DNA from: Akkermansiaceae bacterium
GTDB taxonomy: Bacteria > Verrucomicrobiota > Verrucomicrobiia > Verrucomicrobiales > Akkermansiaceae
Direction: 5' to 3'
Length of the DNA: 64,000 nucleotides
NCBI GenBank assembly: GCA_903908495.1
Contig: CAIVSK010000014.1
Coordinates: 27,315-91,314 of the forward strand
The position numbers and the translations under genes are program-made. Below the pieces are notes generated by a model. That model ran no database searches and was not told the origin of the DNA. It saw nothing but the letters and a program-made list of their open reading frames with translations. This document shows, in pieces, positions 14,576 through 32,888 of this stretch. The number at the start of each line of letters is the position of its first letter. Position 1 is the stretch's first letter.

Positions 14576-17500
14576 TTACGGATTGCCGCTGGCCTGCACG
14601 CGGACGAATTTCCGGCTGCCATCAATGGCGATGGTGGCTTGCTTGAGGACGTATTCGGCGGAATAGACGCTGCTCTGGTCGGCGGCATCGGTGATGACCG
14701 CGGCGCTGGTGGTCCATGGATCCGCGAGGGTGCTGCTCTCCTGGAGGATGTAGGTGGTGTTGGCCCGCTCGGACCAGCGCACGATCAAGCCACTCGGCGT
14801 GCTCTCGAAGGTGGTGAGTGCACCGGTGTTGGCGATGGGCGAGGTGCCGAACAGGTATTCCTGCAGGTTGCTGAAGCCGTCGCCATCGGGGTCGGCCGTG
14901 GGGACGCGATCGGCTTCATTCGCAATCACCGACGACCAGGCGATGTAAGGATCGACGTACGGATTGGTGGTCACGGTGAGGATTCCCGTGCCTGAGAAGC
15001 GGGTGTCGTCCTGATGCGCGGCACTGGAACTGGTGCTGCCGTAGGTGCCCGCGAGTTGTTGGGTGCTGCCGAAATACAGCGTGCCCACGACCTCATTGGC
15101 CCCGATCGCAACGTCGACTTTGCCGCCGTCGATGACCAGTTTGTTGGTGTCTACGATGGAAGTACCGCTCACTCCGAGCGTGCCCGCAGTGACGGTGGTG
15201 TCGCCGGTGTAGGTGTTGGCAGCGGTCAGCAACATCGTGCCGGCACCGGTCTTGGTCAGCGGGGAGGGGTTCCCGCCGACGTTTTGCAGGATCGAGTTGA
15301 CCGTTAGATCAACATTGCTGTCAGCCGTGACATCGGCCACTTGGAAGGTGGTTCCCAACAATCCTAACGAGCCCAGCGAGATATTGGCATAAGCACCGGT
15401 TCCCGAGGTGGAAATGACCGTTGGAGTGGTGCTCACGCCCCCGACGACGACGGTTCCCACAAATGTCATGTTGGTGTTGAAACCACCCGCCGTTGAGCCG
15501 GTGGTCACGTCGACGGTGGCACCATCCAGGTTGATGTTGGCGAGGAAGGCCAGGTTGACGCCTTCGCCGCCCCAGAGTTTGCCGCCCGGTTCAATCATGA
15601 TGGTGGGGGCGAATTGCGGCATCACAAATGAGTTCCCCAGCGGCGCTATGCTGCCGACTCCCATGGTGGCACCGCTTAGCACGGTGATCACGTTGGTGGG
15701 ATCCATCGGACCGGCGACGCAGAACTGGCCGGCGGCGTTGCCTTCGCCGGTGGATAGGCCGTTGGAGTAGAACTTCAGGATGCCTTCCTTGATCACGGTG
15801 CCACCGGTGTAGCTGTTGGCGTTCAAGATGCCGTCCACATTGCAGAGGCTGATCATGCCGGTTCCCGTTTTCACGAGCTGGCCCTGGCCCGAGACGGTGC
15901 GGAAGAAATTCCACGCCCCCGCGAGTTCGAAGAAGGCTCCACTGGCGATGGAGACATTGGAATTCCAACTGCTTTGGTTGCTGACAAAATTCAGCTTCAA
16001 GGTGCCCGCGTTGATAGTGGTCGCACCATTGTAGCTAAATCCCTGGACCTGGGAGTTCTTGAATTCCTGGGTGCCGAGGCCGCTCTTGACGATGGACACG
16101 GCCCCCCCGATTTCCTGGCGGATGAGCCCGTAGAAACTGTAGGATGTGTCCACCGGAGTATTGATCGTCAGGGTGGCACCACCGAGCGAGGGAATGGCGA
16201 CGTAGTCCGGCACCGTGGCGTCGTCATTCTGAATGATCGAGACAAACGTGTTGGTCGGGCTGTCCAGGCCGGCGATGGTTTGATGGGTGCCGCGCAGGTT
16301 GACTTTGGAATTGGCACCATTGGATGTCAGGTTGGTCAAGTGCAGCACGGAAGTCGGGCCGAACTGGTTGTCCGCTGCCATGTTCAAGAACACGGAACTC
16401 GCCCCGTCGCCCGCAATGTCGTCGCCCAAGTAGACATCCCCCGAGAGCGAAACACCGCTGGAATTGGCCGCATTGATCGTCCCCTGGGTCATCGTGGTGG
16501 CCCCTGAAAAGCTGTTGGTCCCGGTGAGCGTCAGCGCAGAGGTTCCCGACTTGAAGAGATTGAGCGGCCCGCTGATACTGCGGGTGAGGGTGAAATTCGC
16601 GGTGGTATTGATGCCCAGGCTGGCACCGCCGGCGAATCCGCCGAGGCCCACCGTGTTCAAATCATTGTCGGTGAATTCACCCGTGCCGCCGACATTGAAG
16701 CCCAGCGTCGCACCGGCGTCCACCAGCAGGTTAAAGCTGGTCCACGATGTGGTGGCACCGCCGTAGAGCGACTGCTCCTTGGCGAACTGCAGCGTCCCGG
16801 CGCTGCCGGACGGTCCAACCAAAACATGGGTGGTGCCGGTATAGGTGTTCAATCCGCTGAGGGTCAGGGTGCTGTCACCATCTTTGATGAGGCGGCCGCT
16901 GCCGGTTGCCTGTGCAATATTCCCCCCAAAGACCATGGCTTGGGACTTGATGGAACCGGTGCCGATAGTCAACGCCGTGTTGCTGAGGTTGACGGTTCCC
17001 GCGGTGCCGGTGAGGCCTGCTAGAAACGGTGCCGCGGTGGTGAAATTGGCCGTGCCAGCGGTCATTGCCAGCGAGGCGGCATTCAGCGCCAGATCGTCGC
17101 CGATATTGAGCGTGCCGTTGTTGACCGAGGCGGTGCCGGTGAACAGGGAAACGGCGGAATCCACGTTGTCGGCGTTGAGGCTGATAGTGCCCACTCCGCT
17201 CAGTACCAGGCCGGGGGATTCCAGGTCACCGTTGAATGTCAGGCTGCCCGGTCCCGACTGTGTCACACCGGTGGTGGCCTTGACGGGTCCGTTAAAGGTC
17301 GCCGCGCCGTTGCCGGTGGTGGAGGTGATGCCGTTGTTGACGGTGATCTTGCCACCGCTGAAGGCATAGGCCGCGGCCGTGCTGTTGGTGAACTTCAGCG
17401 ACGATGCGCTCAGAGCGGTTGGAACCGTGATGTTGCGGTTGGCTCCACTGTCGGTGAAATTGAGTGGAGAGGTCGGATCGAAGTTGCCCGGCGTCCAGTT

Positions 17501-18781
17501 GCTGTCCGCCGTGGTGATCCAGCTGGCATTGCCTGCCGAGCCGCTGTTGCCGGTCCAGGCGATCGGCGTGGTCAGCGGGGCGGCCTGCCCCAGGGCAATG
17601 AATTCGCGGTAGCCGACAAAGCTGTTTTCCTGATTGTTGAAGTAGAACTGCAGCGCGGCGACGCCGCTAACCAGATTGCCAGATACCGGAGTCAGGCGGG
17701 TATGGGTGGCCACTTGGGTGCCGAGGTCATGATTGACAACGGGCACCAGCGGCAGGAACACCGTCGGGTTGTCCCAAGTGGAATAGCGCACGAGAAGGTC
17801 CAGGTTGTCGCGTCCGCTGTCCTGCCAGGCACCGTAGAAATCCAGCTCTGACAGGTCATAGCCCTTGATGTTGACCGACAAATCCAGTGGGAAGATGACG
17901 TTTTGTTCATTGTCCGGGGCGACACAGGAGAGCGCGCCACCTGAAGCGGGGCCGAGCAGCCCGTCGGTCAGCGTCGTCCAGCTAGACGAAGTTGTCGTGT
18001 TGCCGGAAGCATGGTAGGACGTGGGTGCCGCCGAGGATAGCGAGGGAGAGTGCAGCAGGTTGGTGCCGGCAGGCAGTGTCCACACGTTGGTGGTGTTCGC
18101 CTCGTTGAGCGTCGTGACGAGGGTCGCTGGTGGAGTATCGGTGAGGACGAACTCGCTGTAACCGGCATTGCCGTTTTCCTGCGCGCCGAAAGTGATCTGG
18201 ATGGCGGCGACGTGCAGAGCCAGATAACCGCTCGTGTCGCTGATCCGGGTGTGGGTGGATTTGGCTCCGTCACCCGGGTTGGCGGTATGGTTGTTGACGC
18301 TGGTGAGGGTGGTGAAGACGGCGGGAGTTGCCACCGTCGAGTAGGCAATGGTGTAGGTCTGGTCATCGCGACCGGGGTCATTCCACAAACCGTAGGAATC
18401 GAAGGCGGTGATGTCATAACCTACAGAGTGAGCGCCGGAAAGATCCAGCGCGAAGGTGACCACCGCACCATTGTTGGGCATCACGACCGTGTTCATTTGA
18501 GACGTGTACGGAATGCTGCCGCCCGGAGTGGCACTGCCGACGCTGCCATTGGTCAGGGTGCCCCAGCTGTTCGACGCACCGTAAATTGTGGTCGACGTTA
18601 GCGGCGTGGGCGTGGCAGTGGCCAACAGATTGGTGCCGGCAGGCAGCACCCATGGGTTGCTGTTGCTATGCTCGTTGTATACAAAGGGCGCGGCCGATGC
18701 GCTGGCGCAGGCGAGCACGGAACCGAAACAGACCACGAAGGTCCGCGGAAACATCAGGATGGAATTGGCTTTATTTTTCAT
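14576..18781 (-). CDS. Autotransporter-associated beta-strand repeat protein with duplicated N-terminal domain and C-terminal DPDGDG module
   Basis: Signal peptide; repeats such as LTKTGAGTMLLTAANTYTGDTTVTAGTLGVSG; two related N-terminal segments (PWVLPAGTNLLA... and VWTLPAGTNLLH...); C-term TADPDGDGFSNLQEYLFGTSP. Confidence 0.9.
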   Translation of the reverse strand: MKNKANSILMFPRTFVVCFGSVLACASASAAPFVYNEHSNSNPWVLPAGTNLLATATPTPLTSTTIYGASNSWGTLTNGSVGSATPGGSIPYTSQMNTVVMPNNGAVVTFALDLSGAHSVGYDITAFDSYGLWNDPGRDDQTYTIAYSTVATPAVFTTLTSVNNHTANPGDGAKSTHTRISDTSGYLALHVAAIQITFGAQENGNAGYSEFVLTDTPPATLVTTLNEANTTNVWTLPAGTNLLHSPSLSSAAPTSYHASGNTTTSSSWTTLTDGLLGPASGGALSCVAPDNEQNVIFPLDLSVNIKGYDLSELDFYGAWQDSGRDNLDLLVRYSTWDNPTVFLPLVPVVNHDLGTQVATHTRLTPVSGNLVSGVAALQFYFNNQENSFVGYREFIALGQAAPLTTPIAWTGNSGSAGNASWITTADSNWTPGNFDPTSPLNFTDSGANRNITVPTALSASSLKFTNSTAAAYAFSGGKITVNNGITSTTGNGAATFNGPVKATTGVTQSGPGSLTFNGDLESPGLVLSGVGTISLNADNVDSAVSLFTGTASVNNGTLNIGDDLALNAASLAMTAGTANFTTAAPFLAGLTGTAGTVNLSNTALTIGTGSIKSQAMVFGGNIAQATGSGRLIKDGDSTLTLSGLNTYTGTTHVLVGPSGSAGTLQFAKEQSLYGGATTSWTSFNLLVDAGATLGFNVGGTGEFTDNDLNTVGLGGFAGGASLGINTTANFTLTRSISGPLNLFKSGTSALTLTGTNSFSGATTMTQGTINAANSSGVSLSGDVYLGDDIAGDGASSVFLNMAADNQFGPTSVLHLTNLTSNGANSKVNLRGTHQTIAGLDSPTNTFVSIIQNDDATVPDYVAIPSLGGATLTINTPVDTSYSFYGLIRQEIGGAVSIVKSGLGTQEFKNSQVQGFSYNGATTINAGTLKLNFVSNQSSWNSNVSIASGAFFELAGAWNFFRTVSGQGQLVKTGTGMISLCNVDGILNANSYTGGTVIKEGILKFYSNGLSTGEGNAAGQFCVAGPMDPTNVITVLSGATMGVGSIAPLGNSFVMPQFAPTIMIEPGGKLWGGEGVNLAFLANINLDGATVDVTTGSTAGGFNTNMTFVGTVVVGGVSTTPTVISTSGTGAYANISLGSLGLLGTTFQVADVTADSNVDLTVNSILQNVGGNPSPLTKTGAGTMLLTAANTYTGDTTVTAGTLGVSGTSIVDTNKLVIDGGKVDVAIGANEVVGTLYFGSTQQLAGTYGSTSSSAAHQDDTRFSGTGILTVTTNPYVDPYIAWSSVIANEADRVPTADPDGDGFSNLQEYLFGTSPIANTGALTTFESTPSGLIVRWSERANTTYILQESSTLADPWTTSAAVITDAADQSSVYSAEYVLKQATIAIDGSRKFVRVQASGNP

Positions 18782-18884
18782 TAGGGCGGGAATTTGTAGC
18801 TTCGCAGCGGGCGGGCGGGGGCTCGCGTAGTCCTAACTGCGAGATTAAGGTGACAGCCAGAGTCGCCCTTGGGAATGGACGATT

Positions 18885-18914
18885 TGGCAATTCTCATGTA
18901 TAATTTGGCAATTC
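18885..18914 (-). promoter_or_regulatory. Candidate operator: TGGCAATTC-N12-TGGCAATTC direct repeat (21 bp period), element 1
   Basis: Plus strand TGGCAATTCTCATGTATAATTTGGCAATTC, 104 bp upstream of the start at 18781 (minus strand). Same architecture at 28160 and 32859. Confidence 0.75.
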
Positions 18915-19131
18915 AAGAGCCCTTCGGCCAGAACGCGTTGACCGTCTTCAGCCATTCCAGCAGGAACGGCTGGCCCAGCACGACCCGGGTGTTGGGCAAG
19001 GCGGCCAGCGCGACGGCCACGGATGTCAGAATCTTCATGGGATAAATGTCGCGAGTTTATTTGGCGGGGATGATTTGCGTGGTTCGCAGCGCCACCGGGG
19101 CGAGTAAGCCCGATTCCAGCAGTTTTGAGTC

Positions 19132-21954
19132 TTATTTGCTCGCCTCGAACTCCCAAGTTCCGGGCGCGACGGTAAAGCTGGTGCGGTTGGTATCGTCCGC
19201 CACCGGCGTGACGCCTTCGATCCGCTCGACGGCTACTCCCATCTGCCACAAGGTCTTGCCCTGCACCTGTATGGTATTGAGACCCAGCTCTGCGAGTGGA
19301 ATGCACACCGTGGCGTTGGTCTTTGCCGGGGAAGTGAGTTTGAGCTTGAAGCTCTCCGGGCTGCGCACGATGCCGACCTCGATGCGGCCATTCACGGTGT
19401 CAAAGCCTGCGTTCACGCGCTTGAGTTTGCTGAGTTGAGGTCTGACCCGATAGGTAGCGAACCCCGCCGCTGTCGGTGCCACGCCCGCGACGTATTGCAT
19501 CATCAAAGTGAGCGGTCCGCCGGCCCAGCCATGGTTGTAGCTGCCGCCGCCATAGCCTTCCGCCCCAATGCCCCAGCCTTCCCACAGCGTGGTGTACTTG
19601 CTCTCCACCATTTTCTGGTAACGCGTCCGCATGCGGGCCAGCGCGGCATCCGCAGCGTTCATTTGGAACAGCGCTTCTAGCACGTATTTTTCCATGTAGG
19701 GACTGCCGTGGAATTGTTTGGCAAGCACCGCCTTGATCGCAGGCCATTGCTCCGGAGTGGCCAACCCGACGAGCACCGCCAGAGCATGGCCGCGTTCATC
19801 CGTCTCCCCCTGGTATCCCGGTGAGCGGTATTCGGTGCCGGTCCACAACAACCGGTTGTAGTTGTTGGATAGGCTCGTCCGCATTGCCTCATAGTGGGCC
19901 ACATCGGCGTCATTGCCGGTCAATCGCGCCATCCTGATGGCCGCCTCCAGCGCTTGATAGAACCAAGCGTTGTCGAGCACCGGCACATCGATGTTCTCGC
20001 CCCAGTCGGCCCAATCCCAGTCACCGCGACGATGAGCCACCAGGCCGTCCGCTCCGAGTTGATAGAGCTCCAGATAGCGTTTCACCGCCGGATAGGCATG
20101 GGCGATGGTCGCCCGGTCGGCGGTGTGGAGATAATACGTCCAGAAGCCATAGTTGCCAATGCTGGCGAGCGACTGCATGGGCAATTCATGGTCATTGCTG
20201 CCGGATGGCATTGGGGCGAAGAGCGCGCCATCGGGTTTCTGCCAGTCCACCAGATTGTAGATTCCCTTGCGAATCAGGGCGTGGGCGCGAGCATCGCAGG
20301 TGTACAGGATCTGGCCCAAGACAATGACTTCATCGCCCCACCACTGGGCGCGCTCGCGGTCGGGATCCTGGATGCAGTCGCGCATGTTCAGGTTCATCGT
20401 GTTGCGGGCTTTGATCCACAGGCTGTTGAAAAAGGCATCATCGCAGGTGAAGCTGCCTGTGAAGTCGGTGTCATAGCGCGTTTCTCGGTAACGCAGCGCC
20501 AGAATCTCAACTCCCGCCGGAATCGAGTAAATCATCCAGTGGCCGTTGAGATAGGCCAAACTCTCGAATTCCTGCTCGCCTTCCTTGGTCACATACTCGG
20601 CGCGGTAGTTGTATTCGCTGCCGCCCTTGTAGTTGTCCGTGCGCATGTCAATGGTCAGCCCGGCGTGCGCCTTGATTTTCAGATAGGGCGAGATCGACAA
20701 ATTGCGTGGCAGTAGAGCGATGATCGGTTTGCCGTCGCTGACGCGGGGCAAGTCGCGGGCGTTTTCGTAGGGAGTGAACTGGCCGATGCGCCATAGCGGG
20801 ATTGGCCGCTCAACGAGTTGATGCCATGGCGCGACGGGCGGTTGGCCCAAGGTGGCTGCTGCCGGCCATGCTGAGTCGTCAAAGTTTGCCGCAGCCCAGT
20901 TGCCGGGATCGAGTCGTGCATCAAAATGGATGTTGTCGTCGGACATGCGATAATTCGGATGGGGCTCGCCGGTGGTGCCATAAGCCGGGTGGCGGAGCAA
21001 TTTCCATGAGGCGTCCGACGTCACCTTGGTGGCCCCGGCATCCAGTTCGAACACCAGTCCCGCCTTGCCGCTGCTCTTGTGCGAATAGCCGTCCTTACCC
21101 CAATACCAGGCCAGCACCGCAAGGGTGTTGCTGCCTTTCCGCAAGTACGGCGCAAGCTCAACCCGGTCGAAATACGTATCTAGCGGATTTGGGCCGCGTT
21201 TCAATTCGCCTTCGTAAACCACTAATGTGCCATTCACCCAGAGCCAGTATTTCGAGTCTACTGCAAGGCGTGCGACGGCGGTTTGCGGTTTGTCATCCAA
21301 CATGAAACTCTTGCGATAGCAGTTCCACTGGTTGGCCGGCGCCGCCCTGCTCAGCGCGATGGCCGACCAGGGGGTGATGCCATTCTTACCCAACACCCGG
21401 GCCGCTTTCCAATCGGTCACCTCCAAAGTTCTGGCACCCATCCATGTGGCATCGGTGACAATTTCCAGTGGCGGCTGGCCACTGCGTTCGATGTGAAGCT
21501 TCCCCAGCAACCCGGCAGCGTTGGTTGGGCCGGTTGCCGGATCGTTTTCGGCTTCGACGACGACCCGGTTCATTCCCGGGCGCAGCGCCGAAGTGATGTC
21601 GATGCCGGTGGCCGTCTTCCAGGTATCACCCCGGCCGAGCTCCTTGCCGTTGATGAAGAGCTTGAACCGATCGTCGGCAGCAAACGCGGCGACTGCGGCG
21701 GTGACCCGCGCGTTTCCCGCCAGCTCAACGTCCCGCCGGAAATACCGCTTGCCCGCCGTGGCGTTGCGCGTGGCATCAACCCCGGCCTCGTCCGTCCAGA
21801 TCCACGACGCGTCCGCGAGATCGAGCGCCGGCAAGGTGGCCGTCCCGAGCCATTGGGCCTGCCAGGGTTGATTGGCGGGCAATTGCGCGTTTGCCGGGCC
21901 TGCTGCAAGCCGCGCAACGAGGATTAGAAGATTGAGTATTGCGAAGTTCTTCAT
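19132..21954 (-). CDS. Alpha-L-rhamnosidase (GH78 type)
   Basis: YFRRDVELAGNARVTAAVAAFAADDRFKLFINGKELG; DCIQDPDRERAQWWGDEVIVLGQILYTCD; DWDWADWGENIDVPVLDNAWFYQALEAAIRMA six-hairpin motifs. Confidence 0.85.
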   Translation of the reverse strand: MKNFAILNLLILVARLAAGPANAQLPANQPWQAQWLGTATLPALDLADASWIWTDEAGVDATRNATAGKRYFRRDVELAGNARVTAAVAAFAADDRFKLFINGKELGRGDTWKTATGIDITSALRPGMNRVVVEAENDPATGPTNAAGLLGKLHIERSGQPPLEIVTDATWMGARTLEVTDWKAARVLGKNGITPWSAIALSRAAPANQWNCYRKSFMLDDKPQTAVARLAVDSKYWLWVNGTLVVYEGELKRGPNPLDTYFDRVELAPYLRKGSNTLAVLAWYWGKDGYSHKSSGKAGLVFELDAGATKVTSDASWKLLRHPAYGTTGEPHPNYRMSDDNIHFDARLDPGNWAAANFDDSAWPAAATLGQPPVAPWHQLVERPIPLWRIGQFTPYENARDLPRVSDGKPIIALLPRNLSISPYLKIKAHAGLTIDMRTDNYKGGSEYNYRAEYVTKEGEQEFESLAYLNGHWMIYSIPAGVEILALRYRETRYDTDFTGSFTCDDAFFNSLWIKARNTMNLNMRDCIQDPDRERAQWWGDEVIVLGQILYTCDARAHALIRKGIYNLVDWQKPDGALFAPMPSGSNDHELPMQSLASIGNYGFWTYYLHTADRATIAHAYPAVKRYLELYQLGADGLVAHRRGDWDWADWGENIDVPVLDNAWFYQALEAAIRMARLTGNDADVAHYEAMRTSLSNNYNRLLWTGTEYRSPGYQGETDERGHALAVLVGLATPEQWPAIKAVLAKQFHGSPYMEKYVLEALFQMNAADAALARMRTRYQKMVESKYTTLWEGWGIGAEGYGGGSYNHGWAGGPLTLMMQYVAGVAPTAAGFATYRVRPQLSKLKRVNAGFDTVNGRIEVGIVRSPESFKLKLTSPAKTNATVCIPLAELGLNTIQVQGKTLWQMGVAVERIEGVTPVADDTNRTSFTVAPGTWEFEASK

Positions 21955-22017
21955 ACGTCTGATGGATTCATGTGGTCGGGGTCATGGAGCTTTCTTCAAC
22001 AAGTGCGTGAGCCCGTT

Positions 22018-25000
22018 CTACTTCTCCTCCCGCTGCAACGTCACCGGTCCTAACAAGCCTGAGCGGATCGGTGAGGTCTTCTGGGTGAGCATATCAAATC
22101 GAAACGCATCGTGGGTCTTGGTGAGGCGTTTCTCCTTGGGCTGGCCAAGATCGCCGATGACGCGGTTCGCCCACAGGTTGATGACGTCAATTTCCAACTG
22201 GTTGCCGGTGGGCTTCACGGCCTTGCTGATATCGACGCGCCACGGGAAGCACCACAGGATGCCGAGTTTCTGGCCGTTGAGCCGCACCTCGGCGACCTCC
22301 TTGACGTCGCCTAAATCGAGCCAGACTCGTGCTGCCTGGCTGCCGGTGGGTAGCTCAGTGTTGGCTGCGGCGCTCAAATCGAATTCTTTCCGGTAGGTGG
22401 CCTTGCCCGAATAGAATTTGATGCCCTCTTCGGGCCGCAGCGTCCAGCTAACCAACTCAGGAAACTCGGCCGCGGTGGGGCCGCCCCAGGCGGGATCGAA
22501 GGCGACGTTCCACGGGCCGCCGAGAGTTTGCACTGGCAGGAGCTTGGGCGAATTGCCGTCCGCCTGTCCGGCCGCCTCCTTGGCGATCGGCTGGCGAAAC
22601 ACCACGAAACAGGCACCGAAGCGGTCAAAATTCAGCGGCAACGTGGTGCCGCCATCGGACTGCCGGAAGGCTGCGGCCGCCTGCATGCTGCCGCTGACGG
22701 GATCAAAGATCTCAGGCCGCTTGCCGCTGACACGGAAGGTGAAATCTTGTGCCGTGGGCTGGTTTTTGCGGTTGCACACAAAGAAGATCTCGGCGTCGCC
22801 TGCCGTGCGATGGATGAAGTCGAAGTCATCCGGCCGCTCGGCCTGACCGGCGTAAGTGAGGTCGGGCTTCACTCCATCTGCTAGTAGCGTTTCCCGCGGT
22901 GTCTTGCCCCAGATCACGCGACCTTTGCCGAAGCGGCGCTCGGTGCGGGCGGTGCCGTCCAGATCGCCCCAGATCTCGGCGGCGATCGCTTGCACCTCAG
23001 CATCACATTTTGGATAGCCTTGCAAGCCGCCAGCGTTTGCGGGCGGGGCGCCGATGATGGTGATTCCCTCGTGAACCAACCAGCGGAGCTTCCTGATGAC
23101 CTCGACCGACATCGCCTTCGAGGGAACCGCGGAAACCGTCAAGCTCTGATAGCCCCCGACCCGCCTGGCGACTTCCGGCAGGGGTGAAACACAATTTTGC
23201 AGCACCAACAACCGGTAACTCATGCCGTCCGGCAGCACGATCCGGCCGTCTTTGACCGACATCCGCGTCGCCAGCACTTCGGCATTGCAATAATCACAAT
23301 CGTAGCCGGAACCCAGCGCCGGGTTGAGATATTTGGGCGGGGCAAGGGTGGGCGGTTCTTCGCCCAGATAGAAACATACGTCACCGACAAAGTTGCCCTG
23401 CTGCAACATATATGAGCAACGCGATAGATAGGTAAAGAAAGCGGGCGACTGCTCCCACCACGTGATGTTCGGGGTGAAATGCTGGCCGGCGCAAAATTCA
23501 TAGCCCGGCTTGCCGTCTGACGGCGGTTGGCAGGTCGCCTGATGCAGCATGATGCGGTTGATGCCCCAGCAGAAGGCGTCGTTGGCGTAGGGTTTCAACT
23601 CGGACGGGCCGAATGACCAATGGGTGCGGTCGCCTTCCATTTGAGTGAATGATTCGGCCTGGACTTGGCGCCGCCCGTACACGTGGGCAGCGGCGGCGGT
23701 CTGTTTGAGGTTGAGTTTGAGTCCCGGGTCCGGGTTATAGTGGTCGGGCGAATTGTAGTTCACCCAGAACTCGCCAGCCGGAAAGTCGCAGCGCCCCAGG
23801 TTTTTCAGCGCGTCCTCGGGCGGAATGTTGTTAGGTCCGGCCGCTTCGCTGCCCATGATCATGCCGTTGTCATGGCACAGCTCGGCAAAATGGCCGTAGA
23901 AGTTGTCAGCCAGGCAATCCTGAATGGTTCGATCAAAATCCGCGCGGAAGCGGGCTGTCACATCCTCATTCACGATGACAATCCCAGTGCCCGGCTTGTA
24001 GCTGCCAATCACTGCGCTGTCGAGTTTGACGTCCCACGTCTGCGCGTTGCCAGGGCGCTGCGCCGCAGCGAAGGTCAGGGTGTAGTCGGTCCCGGGAGTC
24101 AGTCCGGAGATGGCCTGCGAGATCGTTCCATGTGCCTGCAGAAATGCCACTTGCACCCCTTGTGGCGCATTCGGATTGCCAAAGGCGCTGGCATTGCCGC
24201 AGATGCCGGATCCGGTGGGAATGGCCCCATTGCCATTGAAGGCCCACGATCCGCCGGTGGGGTTGTATTGATGGTGGCCAACTCCCAGGCCGGGGGTCTC
24301 AAAATCGGGGTTGGGCACTGTCACCGATGTTCCCTTCTCGGGAGCGATTTGCACGTGGTCAAGAAAGACGGTGTTGTCGCCGCCAGTCAGGTCGGTGCCA
24401 ACGAAGGACAGAGTTTGCGTGGTTCCAGTGGCCTTGAAGCTCGCCGAGTATTCCGACCAAGTGATCGCTCCCTCCAGCGCCGGCAGGTAGGCTTTGAGGT
24501 CGTAGCCACGATACTTGCGGAACTGGTTGGGAAAATCCTGCGTCCAGGTGAGCTTGCCAGCTTCCCAGCTGTCAGACCACAAATAGGCCAGGTGACCGCC
24601 GGCCTCCCGCGCGGCCTTGAGCAGCGGTTCGCCAAGGTGTTTGAAGTGGTCGTCCAGAGCGGCGGGATTGAGGAAGTCAATCTGATAGCCGTTGCCTCCT
24701 TCGTAGGTGTCACCGTTGGGATAGGCGTGCTTGAACTGGCCTTCCGTGGTGACCGTGTAGCCGGTCCGTAGAATCGTCCAGCCGCCTGCGGGAACGTTCC
24801 AATCCAGCCGGCCGCCGGCTTGCAGCTTGTCGGTTAGATCAATGATTGCTTCGGGGTTGATCGCCATGCCGGCCCGCTGGTGCGGGATGGCCTGCACACA
24901 ATAGTCGTGGTAGTAGCCGTCCACTGTTGTCGGCTGCGGAAGTTTGCCCGAAAACTTTTGCGGACCTTCCACGTTCAAATCCGCCTGCACGACCTTTTTC

Positions 25001-25440
25001 ATGGCGTTGTCGGCGGTGACCCACGGCCCTAACATCACCCAACAGCTGGCGGATAGATTGACGCCCAGCTCGATGTTGACCCGCTTGGCCTCCTTGACCG
25101 CGTGGCGGAACAAATCCCACCACTCGGGGCTTTGATACTTCACTCCGGGTAGCGGCGCGGTGCCGGCGTAGCCGCCGTTGCAGATCAGGTTGACGCCGCT
25201 GATGCCTTTGGCCTTGAACTGCTCGAGGTCGCGGGTGATGCCAGCCTTGTCCACCCGATTGAACAGCCAAAACCAATAGACCCGCGGCTGTGCCGAGGCC
25301 GGTGGCTTGGCAAATCCCGAGTCAAGACCGCCTTGCGCCAAAACCGCGGCTGCGGCGCTGACGAGTAGGGTGGCAGCAAGCGCCGCCGACGACAATGAGC
25401 AGAACCGCCGCCCGGGGAGCTTCACAGGTGAGTTTATCAT
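22018..25440 (-). CDS. GH106-type alpha-L-rhamnosidase with inserted, apparently circularly permuted beta-sandwich domain
   Basis: GH106-like N-term FAKPPASAQPRVYWFWLFNRVDKAGITRDLEQFKAKGISGVNLICNGGY and YYGHF-type ...CLADNFYGHFAELCHDNGMIMGSEAAG; insertion at about aa 324-484. Confidence 0.85.
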   Translation of the reverse strand: MINSPVKLPGRRFCSLSSAALAATLLVSAAAAVLAQGGLDSGFAKPPASAQPRVYWFWLFNRVDKAGITRDLEQFKAKGISGVNLICNGGYAGTAPLPGVKYQSPEWWDLFRHAVKEAKRVNIELGVNLSASCWVMLGPWVTADNAMKKVVQADLNVEGPQKFSGKLPQPTTVDGYYHDYCVQAIPHQRAGMAINPEAIIDLTDKLQAGGRLDWNVPAGGWTILRTGYTVTTEGQFKHAYPNGDTYEGGNGYQIDFLNPAALDDHFKHLGEPLLKAAREAGGHLAYLWSDSWEAGKLTWTQDFPNQFRKYRGYDLKAYLPALEGAITWSEYSASFKATGTTQTLSFVGTDLTGGDNTVFLDHVQIAPEKGTSVTVPNPDFETPGLGVGHHQYNPTGGSWAFNGNGAIPTGSGICGNASAFGNPNAPQGVQVAFLQAHGTISQAISGLTPGTDYTLTFAAAQRPGNAQTWDVKLDSAVIGSYKPGTGIVIVNEDVTARFRADFDRTIQDCLADNFYGHFAELCHDNGMIMGSEAAGPNNIPPEDALKNLGRCDFPAGEFWVNYNSPDHYNPDPGLKLNLKQTAAAAHVYGRRQVQAESFTQMEGDRTHWSFGPSELKPYANDAFCWGINRIMLHQATCQPPSDGKPGYEFCAGQHFTPNITWWEQSPAFFTYLSRCSYMLQQGNFVGDVCFYLGEEPPTLAPPKYLNPALGSGYDCDYCNAEVLATRMSVKDGRIVLPDGMSYRLLVLQNCVSPLPEVARRVGGYQSLTVSAVPSKAMSVEVIRKLRWLVHEGITIIGAPPANAGGLQGYPKCDAEVQAIAAEIWGDLDGTARTERRFGKGRVIWGKTPRETLLADGVKPDLTYAGQAERPDDFDFIHRTAGDAEIFFVCNRKNQPTAQDFTFRVSGKRPEIFDPVSGSMQAAAAFRQSDGGTTLPLNFDRFGACFVVFRQPIAKEAAGQADGNSPKLLPVQTLGGPWNVAFDPAWGGPTAAEFPELVSWTLRPEEGIKFYSGKATYRKEFDLSAAANTELPTGSQAARVWLDLGDVKEVAEVRLNGQKLGILWCFPWRVDISKAVKPTGNQLEIDVINLWANRVIGDLGQPKEKRLTKTHDAFRFDMLTQKTSPIRSGLLGPVTLQREEK

Positions 25441-25476
25441 GTTAGTAAGGATTCCAGGATTGAAGGTAGTGCCATA

Positions 25477-28050
25477 TCACCGTTGTATCGCGCGATCTTT
25501 GTCAGTTGCAGGAGGTGTATCAAAAAACACGCCGCTGATGACGGCGTTGTCGCCCCACACGTGGTCGATGCGGAAGATCGCTGGCTTGTTATAGGTGTAG
25601 ACGAGGTATTTGCCGTTTTGGAAATCGGACACCACTTGCACCGGGGCGATCATGTCGAGGGTTTCCGCATCGAACATCTCCACGGCGGCACGCCTAACCG
25701 CTTCGCCCTTGCCGTCCCAGTCGAGGAAGTAGAGCGCCACCTGGTATTCCCGCGTCCCCTTGCTGTGGATGGTGAGCGTCATGGTGTTGAAGGTTCCCTC
25801 CTGCTTGGTGGTGGCGACACAAGTGGCATCTCTGGGAAACGAATTCTTCCGGTCCGGTGCGAGCGCCCGGGGATCGTTCACGCGCGAGGCCCACACCGCA
25901 CCGTTGGGTCCACCGCGATTCAGTTTGAACCCGACCGAGGACACGTAGGAGGGCAGGGTTTTGTCGTTGCCGGCAGCGTGGCACAACAGGTAGCCGTCCT
26001 TGCCATAGACGCCGCCCCAATTGCCGCTGGTGGTGGTGTCCTGCTTGACGAATCTGGCGGCGTAAGTCTCCACGGGCGGCTGATAGGTCGGCGTCTTTCC
26101 CTTGTAGGAAACCACGGCCGTGTAATCGCCCGGTTGAACGCCGGAGAAATTGATGAAAGCAGCATCCTCATTGGCACCGGCAATACCGGGAACCGCATGG
26201 AAGGATCCATCCCACGCCAGCTGGCCATTGATGATGATGCGCCCGATGGTCTTTTCGACCTTGGGAATGCCGACCTTGCCGATTGTGCCTTGGGGCGCAG
26301 AGAACGCGCAGTGGCCGGTATTGACGTTGAAGCTCGCCGCGATCCCGCCAAGGGGCGTCGGCGTTTTGCCAGACACGTCGGTGAGCGTCCTGCCGAGATG
26401 GGGAAGGATCTGATAGGACTTGAATCCCCCGGACATCGGCTTGATACCGAGAATCTCCTCGCTAAGCCACTTCGTCACGCCGGAGCTCCATGGGTGGCAG
26501 AGACTGCTGTGGCCGCACTGGGCATTGGGGATCGGGTCGTTGATCCCGATCACCTGGTTCCACGAGGGGCGATAGACTTCGAAAAATGTGGTGGCTCCGT
26601 AGCGGATCTGGCCGCCCCAGATGTCGTCGATGGTGTTGAGCGCATCGTCGAATTTGTCGATCCGGGCGAAGGCCTGGAGGATGAAATACTGGTTGAACGG
26701 GGACAGCGACAGACGGTTGACCCGATTCGACAGTTCTTTGCCGAAGATCGCGTTCTTTTCCCCATCGTTCAGCAGGCCCGTGTTGAGCGCGTCCGCGGCT
26801 GAATGCAGCGTGAACTCCGTGTGCCATGTTGGATTCTTGCGCAGTTCCGCAATCTTCTCACTCGCATAGCCGTTGTACTTGTTCTGAAGATCCCTCTTGC
26901 CGACCGCGCCCATCAGGCTAGCGAATTCCACCCAAGTGCGGATCGCCAGCATTTTGTATGCCCGCTGTGATTCCGGGCAGCTTGGCTGCTCGAATCCGCC
27001 GGTCCGTTCATCCCAGCCAATAAACACCAGACTGGGGTTTTTCCCATAGACTTGGTAGGCTTCCTCAAGGTTGTGCACGGCCATTTCGATATATCCATCG
27101 ACGGCCGCCGCATCGCCCGTGTATTTGTAATAGTCCACCACGCTCAGGACCCAATACAGGTTGTAGCCGATAATGCCTTGGGCGGTACCCTTGGTCCGGT
27201 CGATGTTCTGCTTGACGAAGTCATAGTTGCCGAACGCGACTAGGGACGCGGCCTGCGAGGCGTGGGCATCGCCGGTGAACGAACCGCGGTCGCCGCGGTC
27301 AACGAGGATTGCGCCGAATTCATCGCTCAGCAGGTTCAATTTGACGCTGTAGGCTCCCGTGTACCAGATGCGCGTGAGCATCGGGTCGCTGCACGCGAAA
27401 CTACCGTCGTAGTTGGTCGGCTTCGTCTGGCAGACGAGGCGGATGCCGGTGATATGCCATGCGGACGTGAACGATTTTACGTGGATCCAGCCGAAACGAA
27501 CGCCCTCATAGAGCAATTTGTTGAGTTCCAGTCGGTAGGTGTTGCCGTATTTGACGGGCTTGAGCGTTTTCACGCTGGTGGCACCGCCGCGCTGGGTGAT
27601 CATGGGCCGGTTGTATTCGCTCACACTCATCTCGACGTCGCCGGTCAGGTCCGGGCTGTCGAATTCCAGCCAGGCCGCGCTTTCGCGCCCGAAGTCCATC
27701 TGGATCGAGCCCGTGCCGTTGACCGTCACGTTAGGCATTTTGCCGGTTAGTGATTGGAGATTGTCAAAGGCGGTTGCTGCGTCGGCGGTGACTTTCTCCG
27801 GCCTCTGCAAGTAGACCTGCAGTCCATCGCTCGCCTTGGGGCTCGGCCACCGGTAGGAGACGAGCGGATCGGGCGAGAGCGCCACTGCCGGACCGCAAAA
27901 GCCGCGGGAACTCATCGCCGGATAGGGCTCCTTGATCGGCGAGGTGTCCCACAGGGATTGGGCGCACGCAGCGAACCCGGAAAGTAGAATAACGATCGGG
28001 ATCAGGATGGTGATTAATATCGGCCTCCTTGACGGGTCTTCAGGATTCAT
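25477..28050 (-). CDS. GH78-like (six-hairpin) glycosidase with uncharacterised C-terminal domain; start re-assigned from 28389 to 28050
   Basis: DRGDRGSFTGDAHASQAASLVAFGNYDFVKQNIDRT; SSLCHPWSSGVTKWLSEEILGIKP. Signal-peptide-like start MNPEDPSRRPILITILIPIVILLSGFAACAQ at 28050; sequence upstream of it is non-coding and carries the operator element. Confidence 0.82.
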   Translation of the reverse strand: MNPEDPSRRPILITILIPIVILLSGFAACAQSLWDTSPIKEPYPAMSSRGFCGPAVALSPDPLVSYRWPSPKASDGLQVYLQRPEKVTADAATAFDNLQSLTGKMPNVTVNGTGSIQMDFGRESAAWLEFDSPDLTGDVEMSVSEYNRPMITQRGGATSVKTLKPVKYGNTYRLELNKLLYEGVRFGWIHVKSFTSAWHITGIRLVCQTKPTNYDGSFACSDPMLTRIWYTGAYSVKLNLLSDEFGAILVDRGDRGSFTGDAHASQAASLVAFGNYDFVKQNIDRTKGTAQGIIGYNLYWVLSVVDYYKYTGDAAAVDGYIEMAVHNLEEAYQVYGKNPSLVFIGWDERTGGFEQPSCPESQRAYKMLAIRTWVEFASLMGAVGKRDLQNKYNGYASEKIAELRKNPTWHTEFTLHSAADALNTGLLNDGEKNAIFGKELSNRVNRLSLSPFNQYFILQAFARIDKFDDALNTIDDIWGGQIRYGATTFFEVYRPSWNQVIGINDPIPNAQCGHSSLCHPWSSGVTKWLSEEILGIKPMSGGFKSYQILPHLGRTLTDVSGKTPTPLGGIAASFNVNTGHCAFSAPQGTIGKVGIPKVEKTIGRIIINGQLAWDGSFHAVPGIAGANEDAAFINFSGVQPGDYTAVVSYKGKTPTYQPPVETYAARFVKQDTTTSGNWGGVYGKDGYLLCHAAGNDKTLPSYVSSVGFKLNRGGPNGAVWASRVNDPRALAPDRKNSFPRDATCVATTKQEGTFNTMTLTIHSKGTREYQVALYFLDWDGKGEAVRRAAVEMFDAETLDMIAPVQVVSDFQNGKYLVYTYNKPAIFRIDHVWGDNAVISGVFFDTPPATDKDRAIQR

Positions 28051-28159
28051 GGGTTGCGGGGGATTTGGTATTTGATTTCTGCGGTGGCGCGGGAACAAAC
28101 GCTCAATGGTTCGGTAGAGCGATTGTGCCGCAGTATCCTGTGCCTGGGAATGGATTTTC

Positions 28160-28189
28160 TGGCAATTCGCATGTTGATTTTGGCAATTC
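28160..28189 (-). promoter_or_regulatory. Candidate operator: TGGCAATTC-N12-TGGCAATTC direct repeat, element 2
   Basis: Plus strand TGGCAATTCGCATGTTGATTTTGGCAATTC, 110 bp upstream of the re-assigned start at 28050. Confidence 0.75.
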
Positions 28190-28382
28190 AGGGGCCAAAC
28201 GGCGGCCGGAGTCCGCCGCACCAAGGAGGGGCGGCTTCCAGCCACCCCGGCCCATGCACAGTGCCATGGCGGCCGTTTGACGGCGTCCTCTTGCACGATC
28301 CATGGGCATCGGGACAAGAGGCCCCCCTCCTTGACGGCCTGCGGCGGGATTGACAGATCGCTACTGGCGACCCTATTGCCGT

Positions 28383-29046
28383 ATGACACGCTTTCTTGAT
28401 CCCCGCGGCGACATTGTGTTCAAACGGATTTTCGGTGAGCACCCGGAGATTCTGCGGGAGTTTCTCAACGGGGTGCTGCCAGTTGAGGATGAAAGCGAGT
28501 TCATTGTCTCGCTGGAATATCTTCCCGGCGAGCAGGTGCCGGACATCCCACTGATCAAAAACAGCATCGTCGACGTCCGTTGCAAGGATGCCTCCGGCCG
28601 CCAATTCATTGTGGAAATGCAGATGGCCTGGACCAATGCTTTTCTGCTGCGCGTGCTGTTCAAAGCCAGCAAGGCATACCTGCGCCAATTGGAGAATGGC
28701 GAGCGCTACGAAATGCTCTGCCCAGTCTACGGCCTGAGTATTCTGGACGATACCTATGATCCCGATCCGGACGCTTATTATCACGATCACAGAACCGTTG
28801 CGAAGAGCAATGAGCATCGCCGAGGAATGCGGATTCAGTCCGGCGCAGTTGGAACACTATGACTCGTTCTGGGACGCGGTGAGCCGCGAGCGCACGCTGA
28901 TGAGTGCCAAATTCGCCGAGCGTCTCGCCGAGGGCGAGACGCTGGGTTTGCTCAAGGCGGCGGTTGGAATGAAGGCGCTCGGCATTGACGCGCAGGTCAT
29001 TTTCCAGGCCACCGGTCTATCAATTGAGCGGATTGCCGAGTTGTAG
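28383..29046 (+). pseudogene. Rpn/PDDEXK_2 family nuclease-transposase remnant (frameshift plus internal deletion)
   Basis: Frame 1: MTRFLDPRGDIVFKRIFGEHPEILREFLNGVLP...DVRCKDASGRQFIVEMQMAW...YYHDH. C-terminal part continues in another frame: RRAMSIAEECGFSPAQLEHYDSFWDAVSRERTL...; middle of the family is missing. Confidence 0.85.
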
Positions 29047-29188
29047 TCCTTTGATCGCTGATTCCATTTGACAAAGCCGGCCCAGTCGCTAATGGCTAGG
29101 CTATAGCTGGCTTTGCGATAGATCTTACAATGCACATCATTCGCTGCGGCGATCACAGAGTGCCGCTACAATGGCCCTCAAATGACGG

Positions 29189-32100
29189 CTATTTCAAACT
29201 GACGCGGGAGGTGAATTGATAGGATCCGGAGCTCACCTGGAACACGGCCGTGCCGTTGTCCTGCCGCAAGAGCTTCACACCCTCGGCCTGTGCCGTCGGC
29301 TTGGCGGATTCCGTCACTGAATTGGCATCCGATGAAGGGACAAATACAGTGGCGGTGGTATTGGGGGGGACGGTGACTGCCAGGGTGAATTTGTCGCCTT
29401 CGATTTTCCAGCGGGTGGCGATTTTACCGCGGATGGAATCGTAGCTGGCATTGCACCAGTTCACTTCCTTGGTTGGCAGCGGACGAATGTTGAATGATTG
29501 ATAGCCGGGATGTTGTTCATCGGGATTAATCCCGGCGACGTTGCGCCAGAGCCACTCGCTGACCGCGCTGTGGGTCCAGTGATTGAGTGATAGATTCTGG
29601 CTATTGGCGTTGAATGCTTCCCAGAAAGTGGTGCTGTGATCGACCATATATCCCCAGGACGGCTGGTCGCGCTGGTTTAGCATTTCCGCCGCATCCTCGT
29701 GGTAGCAGGTGTTGGACAGCGAAAGCAGCAATTCGATGCTGCTCCAGAAGCCGGTGGTGGGATGATGGCCATTTCTCACCACCAACTGTGCCAAGCGCTT
29801 GGCGGCGAGCGCGCGCAACGGTTCGTCGAGGAGACCGAATTGCAGGGCAATGGCATAACTTCCCTGCGCATCGCCCGGATCGGCGGCGTCATAGCCATAG
29901 GAGGCCGCGATGATTTCCAACGGCTTGCCAGCCTTGCCAGTGAGAAGTACCGCGGCATTTTCGCCAAATTCCTGCTCCTGCGCTGCGGTCCCGTTGCGGG
30001 TGCTCAGGTGCAGACTCTTGACATGATTCAATGCCGGATCTCCTCCCAGCACCTCGTTCTTTACAGTGAAGGCCAGCTTGCCATTTTTTACCAGGCCGCG
30101 GACGATGGTCGTCACATCCCGCATGATGGGTTGTCCGCCCGTGGTGCCGCCGATGATTCCATTGGCGCTGACGTGATCTTTCACGAAGCCCTGCCGGATG
30201 CCTTCGAACAACGTGTGATATTGCCCGGCCTCGGCCTTGCGGCCCAACACTTGTGCCATCCGCGATACCAAATCGGCCGAGTGGGCAAAAAAGGCCGTCG
30301 CCCCGATATCCTTGGGTGTCGCCCGACCGGCGCTCAGCCAGTCGCCCCAATCCTGGCCGCGGTTGTTGCGCCAGCGCAAATCCGGATTGCTGGCATGGAT
30401 GGCATCCACCCAACGCCTGGCCGCGTCGAAATGTTGGGAGAGGAGGCGTTTATCCCCGGTATTGACATAAACTTCCCATGGCAGGGAGACACCCGCATCC
30501 GCCCAACCCGGCGAACCGACGCAGATCGTGCAGCCGCGCAGATGGGCGTGGGGAGCGATGTCGGTGAAGCGCCCGTCGGCAGTCTGGTCGTCGCGCTGAT
30601 CGATGGCATACTTGTTGAGAAATGCCGCGGTATCAAAATTGAACATCAATGCCTGCACGCAGGGCCGGATGTCTCCCGACCACGCCAAACGTTCCGAGCG
30701 TGCGGCGCAGCCGTTGGGCACGTCAAACATCATGTTGGCCTGGGTCCACGTGGCGGCCGTCTGGATGCGGTTGTATAAGTCGTTGGAGGATTCGAAGCGG
30801 CCAGCAGTTGATACGTCGCTGCGGAGGTTGACTGCTATCAACGAGTCGGATTTGGGTTTGCCGGGCAGGCCGGTTAGTTCCACATAACGAAATCCATGGT
30901 AAGTGAAGTGCGGCTCCAGCGTGCGTTCGGCCTTGCCATCGAGGATATAGTCTTCCTGTTGCAGGGTGCCCCAGAGGTTTCCGACATCAAGGGCGCCATC
31001 GGCACCAACCAATTCGGAATGGCGCAGGCGCACATGGCTGCCTGCCGGGCCATTCACCTTCACGCGGCACCAGCCGCTGATCTCCTGGCCGAGATCAAAC
31101 ACATATGTGCCCGGCCTGACCTCCTTGACGGCCACCGGCTTGACCTCCCGAATGGCGCGCACCGGTTGGCAGCGCGGCCACACCAGTGGCGTTGCGTCGC
31201 GCGGTTGCGACCACACCGGTTGCCAGGCCCGATCATTGAATCCCGGTTGATCCCAGCCGGACAATTCCCGGCGGCAATCATATCCTTCGCCGTCCAACAG
31301 GTCTGACCAACGCACAGGGCCTTCCAGGGTGCTGCGCCACTGGCCATCCGTGCCCAGGCAAACATTCGTTCCATCCATCAGCTCGACGTCGAGTTGCGCA
31401 AGAAGCTGGGGGAAGTAGCCATAGATGCATTTCATATCCATCAGGTTCAGGTGGCCGGCATACCAGCCGTATCCGATGAGTGCGCCGATGGCGTTGTTGC
31501 CCCTGCGCAACAACCGGGTCACGTCGTGACTCTGGTATTGGAGCCGGGTGCCATAGTCGGTGAATCCCGGAGCGAGCAGGTCCTCGCCGACGCGCTTGCC
31601 ATTGATGCGCACCTCATAAAACCCCCGCGCGGAAACTGATAGAGTGGCGCGCCGGACTCCGCCTGCCAGATCGAATTCCCGCCGCAGCATCGGCACCCGC
31701 GAGACGGTGGCCGTCGCCTTCGCGTCCGGCATGCCCGCGTCCAGGACCGGCGCTGCGCTTGCCAGGGCAACGGCGGCTTTGCCGTCCACCAGAAACTTTT
31801 TCGACCATTGGTCGGTTTCCATGGAATCCGAGCATTCCACCCCGGCACCGACGGCGATGGACTGGGCACCGTCGAACACAGCGAACCCGCCCAGCGCGAT
31901 TCCATAGTCCTGACCGTCCCATTGCGCCAGCCGGGTTACGGTTAGACGCACATAGCGCGCAGTGTCGGCGGTGAACGGATAGCGGGATGAATTGCTGCGG
32001 GGACCGACCTCGTCACTGGTGGTATGATCCACCACGGTATGTGCATCACTGAAGTCCCGCTTGTCGGCCAGCTCCAGCTTGAAGCGGCGCGGGAACATTG

Positions 32101-32728
32101 CGGTGCGGAAATCAGGGTTCTGGCCCTGTGGCCGGGCAGGCATCAGGTCGACCGCATCCATGTGTTTGGCAGTGCCTAAATCGAGAACGATCCACTTGGC
32201 GGCATCGGGGCGGGTTGCCAGTTCGCTGCGGTAGCAATGGGTCGGCGTCATGGGGCGATTGGCCGGGTCCGCCAAGGTTGGGTCACTGATCCACAGCGAC
32301 TTCCAATCGGAAGCTTGGAGCAAACCCATGCTCCACGCGGCGGTCTGGCTCCAAGCCGACGCCGTGCCGTCGCGATCCCAAATCCGCACTTTCCAGACGC
32401 ACTGGCCGCGCGATGCCAGCGCTTGGCCGGCATATTCCACCTGTGCCGTGGCACCCGATGCCACTTTGCCGCTGTCCCACAGGTCGCCCTTGTCAGCGGC
32501 AAGCAACTCGCTGGTGGAGGCGGCCAGAACCTGATAGGCCGACTGCGTCTCGCCACGCCGCTCCGAGGTGATCAACCAACTGAGGGCGGGCCGCGCCTCA
32601 TCGAGGCCGTTTGGATTTTTCAAATGTTCGCAACGCAAGCCAGCGACTGTGGCGGCGGCGGCCACATTCGCCAATCCGGTGCCCAGCACCAGCAACCATC
32701 TTGGCAGTTTTTTCATCATGGGTGTCAT
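29189..32728 (-). CDS. Alpha-L-rhamnosidase (GH78); start re-assigned from 32950
   Basis: LRCEHLKNPNGLDEARPALSWLITSERRGETQSAYQVLAAS; SERLAWSGDIRPCVQALMFNFDTAAFLNKY; signal peptide MKKLPRWLLVLGTGLANVAAAA. Confidence 0.92.
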   Translation of the reverse strand: MTPMMKKLPRWLLVLGTGLANVAAAATVAGLRCEHLKNPNGLDEARPALSWLITSERRGETQSAYQVLAASTSELLAADKGDLWDSGKVASGATAQVEYAGQALASRGQCVWKVRIWDRDGTASAWSQTAAWSMGLLQASDWKSLWISDPTLADPANRPMTPTHCYRSELATRPDAAKWIVLDLGTAKHMDAVDLMPARPQGQNPDFRTAMFPRRFKLELADKRDFSDAHTVVDHTTSDEVGPRSNSSRYPFTADTARYVRLTVTRLAQWDGQDYGIALGGFAVFDGAQSIAVGAGVECSDSMETDQWSKKFLVDGKAAVALASAAPVLDAGMPDAKATATVSRVPMLRREFDLAGGVRRATLSVSARGFYEVRINGKRVGEDLLAPGFTDYGTRLQYQSHDVTRLLRRGNNAIGALIGYGWYAGHLNLMDMKCIYGYFPQLLAQLDVELMDGTNVCLGTDGQWRSTLEGPVRWSDLLDGEGYDCRRELSGWDQPGFNDRAWQPVWSQPRDATPLVWPRCQPVRAIREVKPVAVKEVRPGTYVFDLGQEISGWCRVKVNGPAGSHVRLRHSELVGADGALDVGNLWGTLQQEDYILDGKAERTLEPHFTYHGFRYVELTGLPGKPKSDSLIAVNLRSDVSTAGRFESSNDLYNRIQTAATWTQANMMFDVPNGCAARSERLAWSGDIRPCVQALMFNFDTAAFLNKYAIDQRDDQTADGRFTDIAPHAHLRGCTICVGSPGWADAGVSLPWEVYVNTGDKRLLSQHFDAARRWVDAIHASNPDLRWRNNRGQDWGDWLSAGRATPKDIGATAFFAHSADLVSRMAQVLGRKAEAGQYHTLFEGIRQGFVKDHVSANGIIGGTTGGQPIMRDVTTIVRGLVKNGKLAFTVKNEVLGGDPALNHVKSLHLSTRNGTAAQEQEFGENAAVLLTGKAGKPLEIIAASYGYDAADPGDAQGSYAIALQFGLLDEPLRALAAKRLAQLVVRNGHHPTTGFWSSIELLLSLSNTCYHEDAAEMLNQRDQPSWGYMVDHSTTFWEAFNANSQNLSLNHWTHSAVSEWLWRNVAGINPDEQHPGYQSFNIRPLPTKEVNWCNASYDSIRGKIATRWKIEGDKFTLAVTVPPNTTATVFVPSSDANSVTESAKPTAQAEGVKLLRQDNGTAVFQVSSGSYQFTSRVSLK

Positions 32729-32858
32729 GTATTCGCTTGGGTGCTGGCTAGCGCTGTTAGCCTCGGAGGCGGGGCCCAGGGAGAGCGTGGGCGTTGCGCA
32801 GGGGCGTGGAAAGCCGTTGATGACTGGCAGGAAAGCCTGTTCTTGTAAATGTAAATTC

Positions 32859-32888
32859 TGGCAATTCGCATGTATGAATTGGCAATTC
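32859..32888 (-). promoter_or_regulatory. Candidate operator: TGGCAATTC-N12-TGGCAATTC direct repeat, element 3
   Basis: Plus strand TGGCAATTCGCATGTATGAATTGGCAATTC, 131 bp upstream of the GH78 start at 32728. Confidence 0.75.

Follow-up and report, generated by a model that had tools for sequence, protein, structure and literature searches.

The three paired elements found in the window, the 64,000-nucleotide stretch of Akkermansiaceae DNA analysed here, are most probably operator-promoters of a class II-type AraC-family activator that controls rhamnosidases and a large PATR-repeat surface protein. Together with two further copies elsewhere in the genome they form a set of five (E1–E5), and the candidate activator is encoded on contig C307, beside E5. 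The initial annotation had proposed an AraC-type rhamnoside regulon, and this proposal finds computational support in the architecture of the sites, their co-occurrence with orthologues of the regulator, their conservation and their GH78, GH106 and PATR targets.

A paired element upstream of rhamnosidase and surface-protein genes

The pattern TGGCAATTC-N12-TGGCAATTC occurs three times in the window, at 18885–18914, 28160–28189 and 32859–32888, with both 9-mers exact in each copy, as originally described. No further copies appeared when up to three mismatches were allowed, a threshold at which 0.07 would be expected in the window, and none of 100 shuffles reached three copies. The lone 9-mer was present only at chance level (23 occurrences with one mismatch at most, versus 20.8 expected), so it is the pairing that carries the signal. 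The [GT]CATGT spacer core was likewise recovered, as was the flank TGGGAATGGA common to the first two elements. All three elements stand upstream of minus-strand genes, although the distances to the starts, given before as 104, 110 and 131 bp, were measured as 103, 109 and 130 bp, each 1 bp off. Domain matches bore out the identity assigned to the target genes, namely a PATR repeat protein, a GH78-like gene heading a GH106 and a GH78, and a separate GH78:

14576–18781, minus strand: PATR (beta-strand repeat) surface protein, 1401 aa (PF12951, 2e-24; TIGR02601)
19132–21954, minus strand: GH78 alpha-L-rhamnosidase (PF17389, 2e-34)
22018–25440, minus strand: GH106 alpha-L-rhamnosidase (PF17132, 6e-167)
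25477–28050, minus strand: GH78-like gene, first of the operon behind E2 (PF17389, 7e-7)
29189–32728, minus strand: GH78 alpha-L-rhamnosidase behind E3 (PF17389, 4e-74; Rha78A_N; searched from an internal ATG at 32719)

Elsewhere in the window, positions 47675–51271 encode an amino-acid-permease-type transporter fused to HAMP, PAS, histidine kinase and receiver domains, and positions 40744–41865 a LacI-type sugar-sensor domain fused to a GntR-type winged helix.

Architecture of the element and putative promoters

The 30-bp pair of 9-mers is present but is not the full unit, as the element continues for another 15 bp toward the gene. The complete element comprises 45 bp and contains two direct 17-bp half-sites, nnnCCA-N5-T-[AC]-CAT-[GT], with a period of 21 bp. 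Read along the gene strand, the elements have the sequence GAATTGCCA-N6-ACATG-c-GAATTGCCA-N6-[AC]CATT, which gives half-sites of the form TTGCCA-N6-[AC]CAT, so the 9-mer noticed initially covers just a portion of the 17-bp half-site. CCA-N5-T[AC]CAT was common to both halves of 14 sites, in which the period was exactly 21 bp (22 bp in the site of the G155 orthologue, described below), and autocorrelation showed a single peak of 0.43 at lag 21, with values of 0.30 or less at every other lag tested. The elements and promoters of the window are the following:

18870–18914, minus strand: E1, putative AraC-type operator upstream of the PATR surface protein gene (half-sites 18895–18911 and 18874–18890)
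18847–18875, minus strand: putative E1 promoter (-35 TTCCCA at 18870–18875; weak -10 CACCTT at 18847–18852; 17-bp spacer)
28145–28189, minus strand: E2, putative operator upstream of the GH78-like/GH106/GH78 operon (half-sites 28170–28186 and 28149–28165)
28122–28150, minus strand: putative E2 promoter (-35 TTCCCA; -10 CACAAT at 17 bp)
32844–32888, minus strand: E3, putative operator upstream of the GH78 alpha-L-rhamnosidase gene (half-sites 32869–32885 and 32848–32864)
32821–32849, minus strand: putative E3 promoter (-35 TTTACA; CAGTCA at 17 bp, no clear -10)

The gene-side end of the element coincides with the -35 (TTCCCA or TTTACA), and pooling of the 14 sites revealed a peak of -10-like hexamers 17 bp past the element (P = 0.0002 by shuffling), individual -10 matches being weak at E1, E3 and E4. 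The sites show two features of AraC/XylS-family operators: a direct half-site repeat of about 21 bp, and a proximal half-site at the -35, followed after about 17 bp by a -10. Class II AraC activation has such a layout, as established for araI1-I2. By this scheme, a dimer of the C307 protein would occupy the two direct half-sites, 21 bp apart, and, with the downstream one abutting the -35, RNA polymerase would be recruited to a weak promoter once the regulator binds its ligand.

Sites and targets across the genome

Scanning of the whole assembly (6.19 Mb, 432 contigs, 95.7% complete) with the pattern added another exact copy, the fourth, on contig C184 (E4) and a degenerate fifth, with the spacer kept, on C307 (E5). 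The five elements were made into a 45-nt sequence model (R1), which retrieved exactly those five, with E-values that are rough because of a shortened calibration but lie below 1e-11 (9e-13 for E1), the next match being noise (E = 2.2). To avoid circularity, a second model (R2) was made from regulator-adjacent sites only. This model retrieved E1 (E = 8e-8), E2 (E = 1.4e-4), E4 and a GH78 site in G081, a genome of another genus, all at about 2e-4 or better; E3 was the weakest (E = 0.32). Moreover, with a matrix from six regulator sites of other genomes only, E1–E5 were the top five of 358,710 positions, E1 ranking first and E3 fifth.

Rather than being scattered without orientation bias, which would have spoken against an operator, four of the five strong sites lie in the same orientation 60–135 bp upstream of PATR, GH78 or GH106 genes. 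E4 precedes a GH106 gene. Its contig and C316 overlap by exactly 141 bp and form one scaffold, which carries, besides the GH106 and a second PATR gene, an L-rhamnonate-dehydratase-like gene (303 bits, against a model cut-off of 393) and genes for a Gfo/Idh oxidoreductase, a DHDPS-family aldolase and a GH13-like protein. E5 separates the AraC-family gene from a UroD-like gene that diverges from it. The proposed regulon would comprise the PATR protein, the GH78-like/GH106/GH78 operon, the separate GH78, the GH106 of the L-rhamnonate-dehydratase locus and, beside the regulator, the UroD-like gene. A point against it is that most of the remaining GH78 genes in this genome have no element.

Conservation in related genomes, a further point on which the initial proposal hinged, was also observed. 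G081 has the element before a GH78 and also before a PATR gene that itself comes after a GH78, and the protein encoded by the latter is 53% identical to the window PATR over 1036 residues plus the C-terminus. Since the G081 element precedes the orthologous PATR gene, membership of the surface protein in the proposed rhamnoside regulon, the most surprising part of the initial annotation, is conserved. A further, weaker site in G081 lies before a PEP-CTERM protein gene.

From the targets only, the ligand would be L-rhamnose or a rhamnose-containing oligosaccharide. A GH78, a GH106 or an adjoining PATR gene stands behind four of the five sites here, and a GH78 and a PATR in G081. It is conceivable, and we take it seriously without favouring it, that the regulon is real but responds to another component of a rhamnose-bearing glycan or to a methylated sugar. 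The gene adjoining the regulator does vary between genomes (UroD/MtaA-like here, nucleoside-hydrolase-like in G081), as such a signal might allow; however, the recurrence of GH78 and GH106 as targets in two genera and the position of E4 within a rhamnonate catabolic locus argue for rhamnose.

The C307 AraC-family gene as the likely regulator

A search for a co-occurring AraC regulator, which the initial annotation had recommended, led to the AraC-family gene on C307. It encodes a protein of 280 aa with an HTH domain (PF12833, 6e-17) and an N-terminal cupin-type AraC_binding domain (PF02311, 4e-7), and on sequence grounds this protein is the likely regulator of E1–E5. Orthologues of at least 50% identity were detected in seven of 260 family genomes, its own included, and an independent search with the motif (R1, E ≤ 0.01) gave four of the 260; all four were among the seven (P = 2e-7, or 7e-6 without its own genome), several of the genomes being incomplete. 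No orthologue outside the family emerged when 387 genomes of the order were searched.

The element was found at the divergent promoter of all eight orthologues inspected, the eighth being that of G155, which is 42% identical and falls outside the 50% set. The start methionines of the eight proteins align, and half-site 1 covers the start codon from the opposite strand. An element placed in this way over the regulator's own start codon would activate outward and be self-damping. In G095, G106, G130, G139 and G161 the only well-supported site was that at the regulator itself, which counts against the proposed regulon, and R2 matches in G236 and G069 were partial and at the expected noise level. 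A scan of 84,980 genomes with the exact pattern gave five matches, of which only Akkermansiaceae contig L020 (contig C240 of G095) was meaningful.

The surroundings of the regulator are diverse. On C307 it is flanked by GH32, MFS transporter and UroD genes, with no rhamnose genes, a further point against the proposal; in G161 its neighbours are a TIM-barrel, a desaturase-Rieske-NqrF and a GH78-like gene, and in G106 a 1190-aa (alpha/alpha)6-like protein. Fatty-acid-desaturase/Rieske/NqrF-like reductase fusions near the AraC regulator were seen at L051:4918–7173, L052:4508–6757 and L053:5672–6697 (partial), that of L051 coming after a TIM-barrel gene in the divergent operon.

The genome contains 16 HTH_18 AraC-type regulators, a second AraC gene is present in the rhamnonate-dehydratase locus on C184, and in principle a sister regulator could control a target that is itself always autoregulated. 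Reading of E1–E4 by another such protein, for example that of C184, with the C307 gene as a mere member of the regulon, is nevertheless improbable, given that the occurrence of the motif in other genomes follows that of the C307 orthologue, that the C184 frame is interrupted by an in-frame TAG, and that the C184 divergent promoter bears a different 21-bp direct repeat (AAATGGYGA..CAATT).

This second repeat, AAATGGCGAAGCAATTGGCGC / AAATGGTGAGCAATT, has only two copies in the genome, L012:2040–2075 at the AraC/rhamnonate-dehydratase promoter and G000:C316:8369–8404 at the promoter of the PATR paralogue. The latter promoter is an 89%-identical, 226-bp copy of the former, and the duplication includes an AraC N-terminal fragment. 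The interrupted AraC gene itself (L012:1107–1985, minus strand), with its single in-frame TAG, may represent a natural pseudogene or an assembly error.

Finally, a dispersed repeat or mobile-element footprint, intergenic by chance, has a negligible probability despite the very high identity among the E1–E4 cores, and we exclude it because the flanks of the five elements are unrelated (identity 0.27–0.33, against 0.78 in the core), in keeping with the presence of only five copies, four of them same-orientation upstream sites, and with the conservation of the element at orthologous promoters across genera.

The PATR surface protein

The inclusion of a surface autotransporter-like protein in the regulon stood in part: the surface PATR target held, with conservation in G081, but no autotransporter beta-barrel domain was detected in the protein, where only PF12951/TIGR02601 repeats matched. 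The structure of its N-terminal 415 residues was predicted from 19 homologues (mean pLDDT 78.7). The predicted N-terminus (about 400 aa) resembles tandem discoidin/CBM32 domains, such as neuropilin b1b2, CBM32 pairs and fucolectin, with a TM-score by target of 0.69 against a single CBM32; low whole-chain TM-scores are probably due to the uncertain relative orientation of the two domains. Sequence searches gave no Pfam or PDB relatives of this region, so that the likeness comes from fold comparison only. Judging by this model, the PATR protein probably binds sugar.

PATR homologues are present in 16 of the 260 family genomes. A universal pairing of PATR genes with rhamnosidases found no support, as rhamnosidases lie near only about half of the PATR loci examined. 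The paralogue on C316 is 74% identical to the window copy and is not preceded by the TTGCCA element. The PATR genes of L085, L087, L088, L089, L092 and L093 have in common another upstream motif, roughly TAAACTCACAGGTTCACGGA, which suggests a third regulator. On contig C287 of the same genome (L110:6906–19998), a GH78 is divergent from two tandem PATR genes, again without the TTGCCA element.

Comparison with known systems

The arrangement of E1–E5 resembles E. coli araI1-I2 in its two direct 17-bp half-sites 21 bp apart, the proximal one abutting the -35, and half-site 1 of E1 agrees at 10 of 17 positions with the araI1 sequence. The C307 protein, however, is not orthologous to AraC (35.5 bits, against an NCBIfam cut-off of 208). 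RhaS, an AraC-family protein of rhamnose regulation like RhaR, was the best, very weak NCBIfam match of its HTH region, but at 40.5 bits against a curated cut-off of 288 the C307 protein does not qualify as a RhaS orthologue. In addition, the E. coli RhaS/RhaR sites are inverted repeats, those of RhaR having 17-bp half-sites and a 17-bp spacer (PMC3870299), whereas the sites described here are direct repeats.

This kind of operator is already known: in Bacillales, Bacteroides and Enterococcus, the motifs of AraC-family L-rhamnose regulators are direct repeats that are specific to the lineage and have a 21-bp periodicity (PMC3870299). That work names no Verrucomicrobia, and the regulators in it differ from the present one in motif (here TTGCCA-N6-[AC]CAT) and in targets, which are the core catabolic operon in their case and rhamnosidases plus a surface protein in ours. 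A surface-protein target is unusual for the known kind of AraC rhamnose regulon. Richness in rhamnosidases is known for Verrucomicrobiota (PMC8857213), and our literature search found no described AraC operator motif for glycan degradation in this phylum.

In Sus-type loci of Bacteroides, surface glycan-binding proteins are co-regulated with glycanases. The loci studied here are alike in placing a secreted protein with predicted carbohydrate-binding-type domains beside glycoside hydrolases under the same control, but the protein family differs, consisting of PATR repeats plus tandem discoidin-like domains. We suggest tentatively, at somewhat less than an even chance, that PATR proteins with tandem CBM32-like domains are a verrucomicrobial counterpart of such co-regulated glycan-binding proteins, repeatedly wired to AraC-type operators beside rhamnosidases; for the copy in the window this would be the TTGCCA operator, for its paralogue the repeat common with the rhamnonate-dehydratase promoter. 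The same suggestion includes a regulator operator that activates one way and damps its own gene the other.

The analysis links an operator to its probable regulator and to its targets in two genera, providing a testable regulon and a matrix with which to search for it. Large verrucomicrobial surface repeat proteins also gain a concrete hypothesis for their role, in which they may serve as sugar-binding partners of rhamnosidases.
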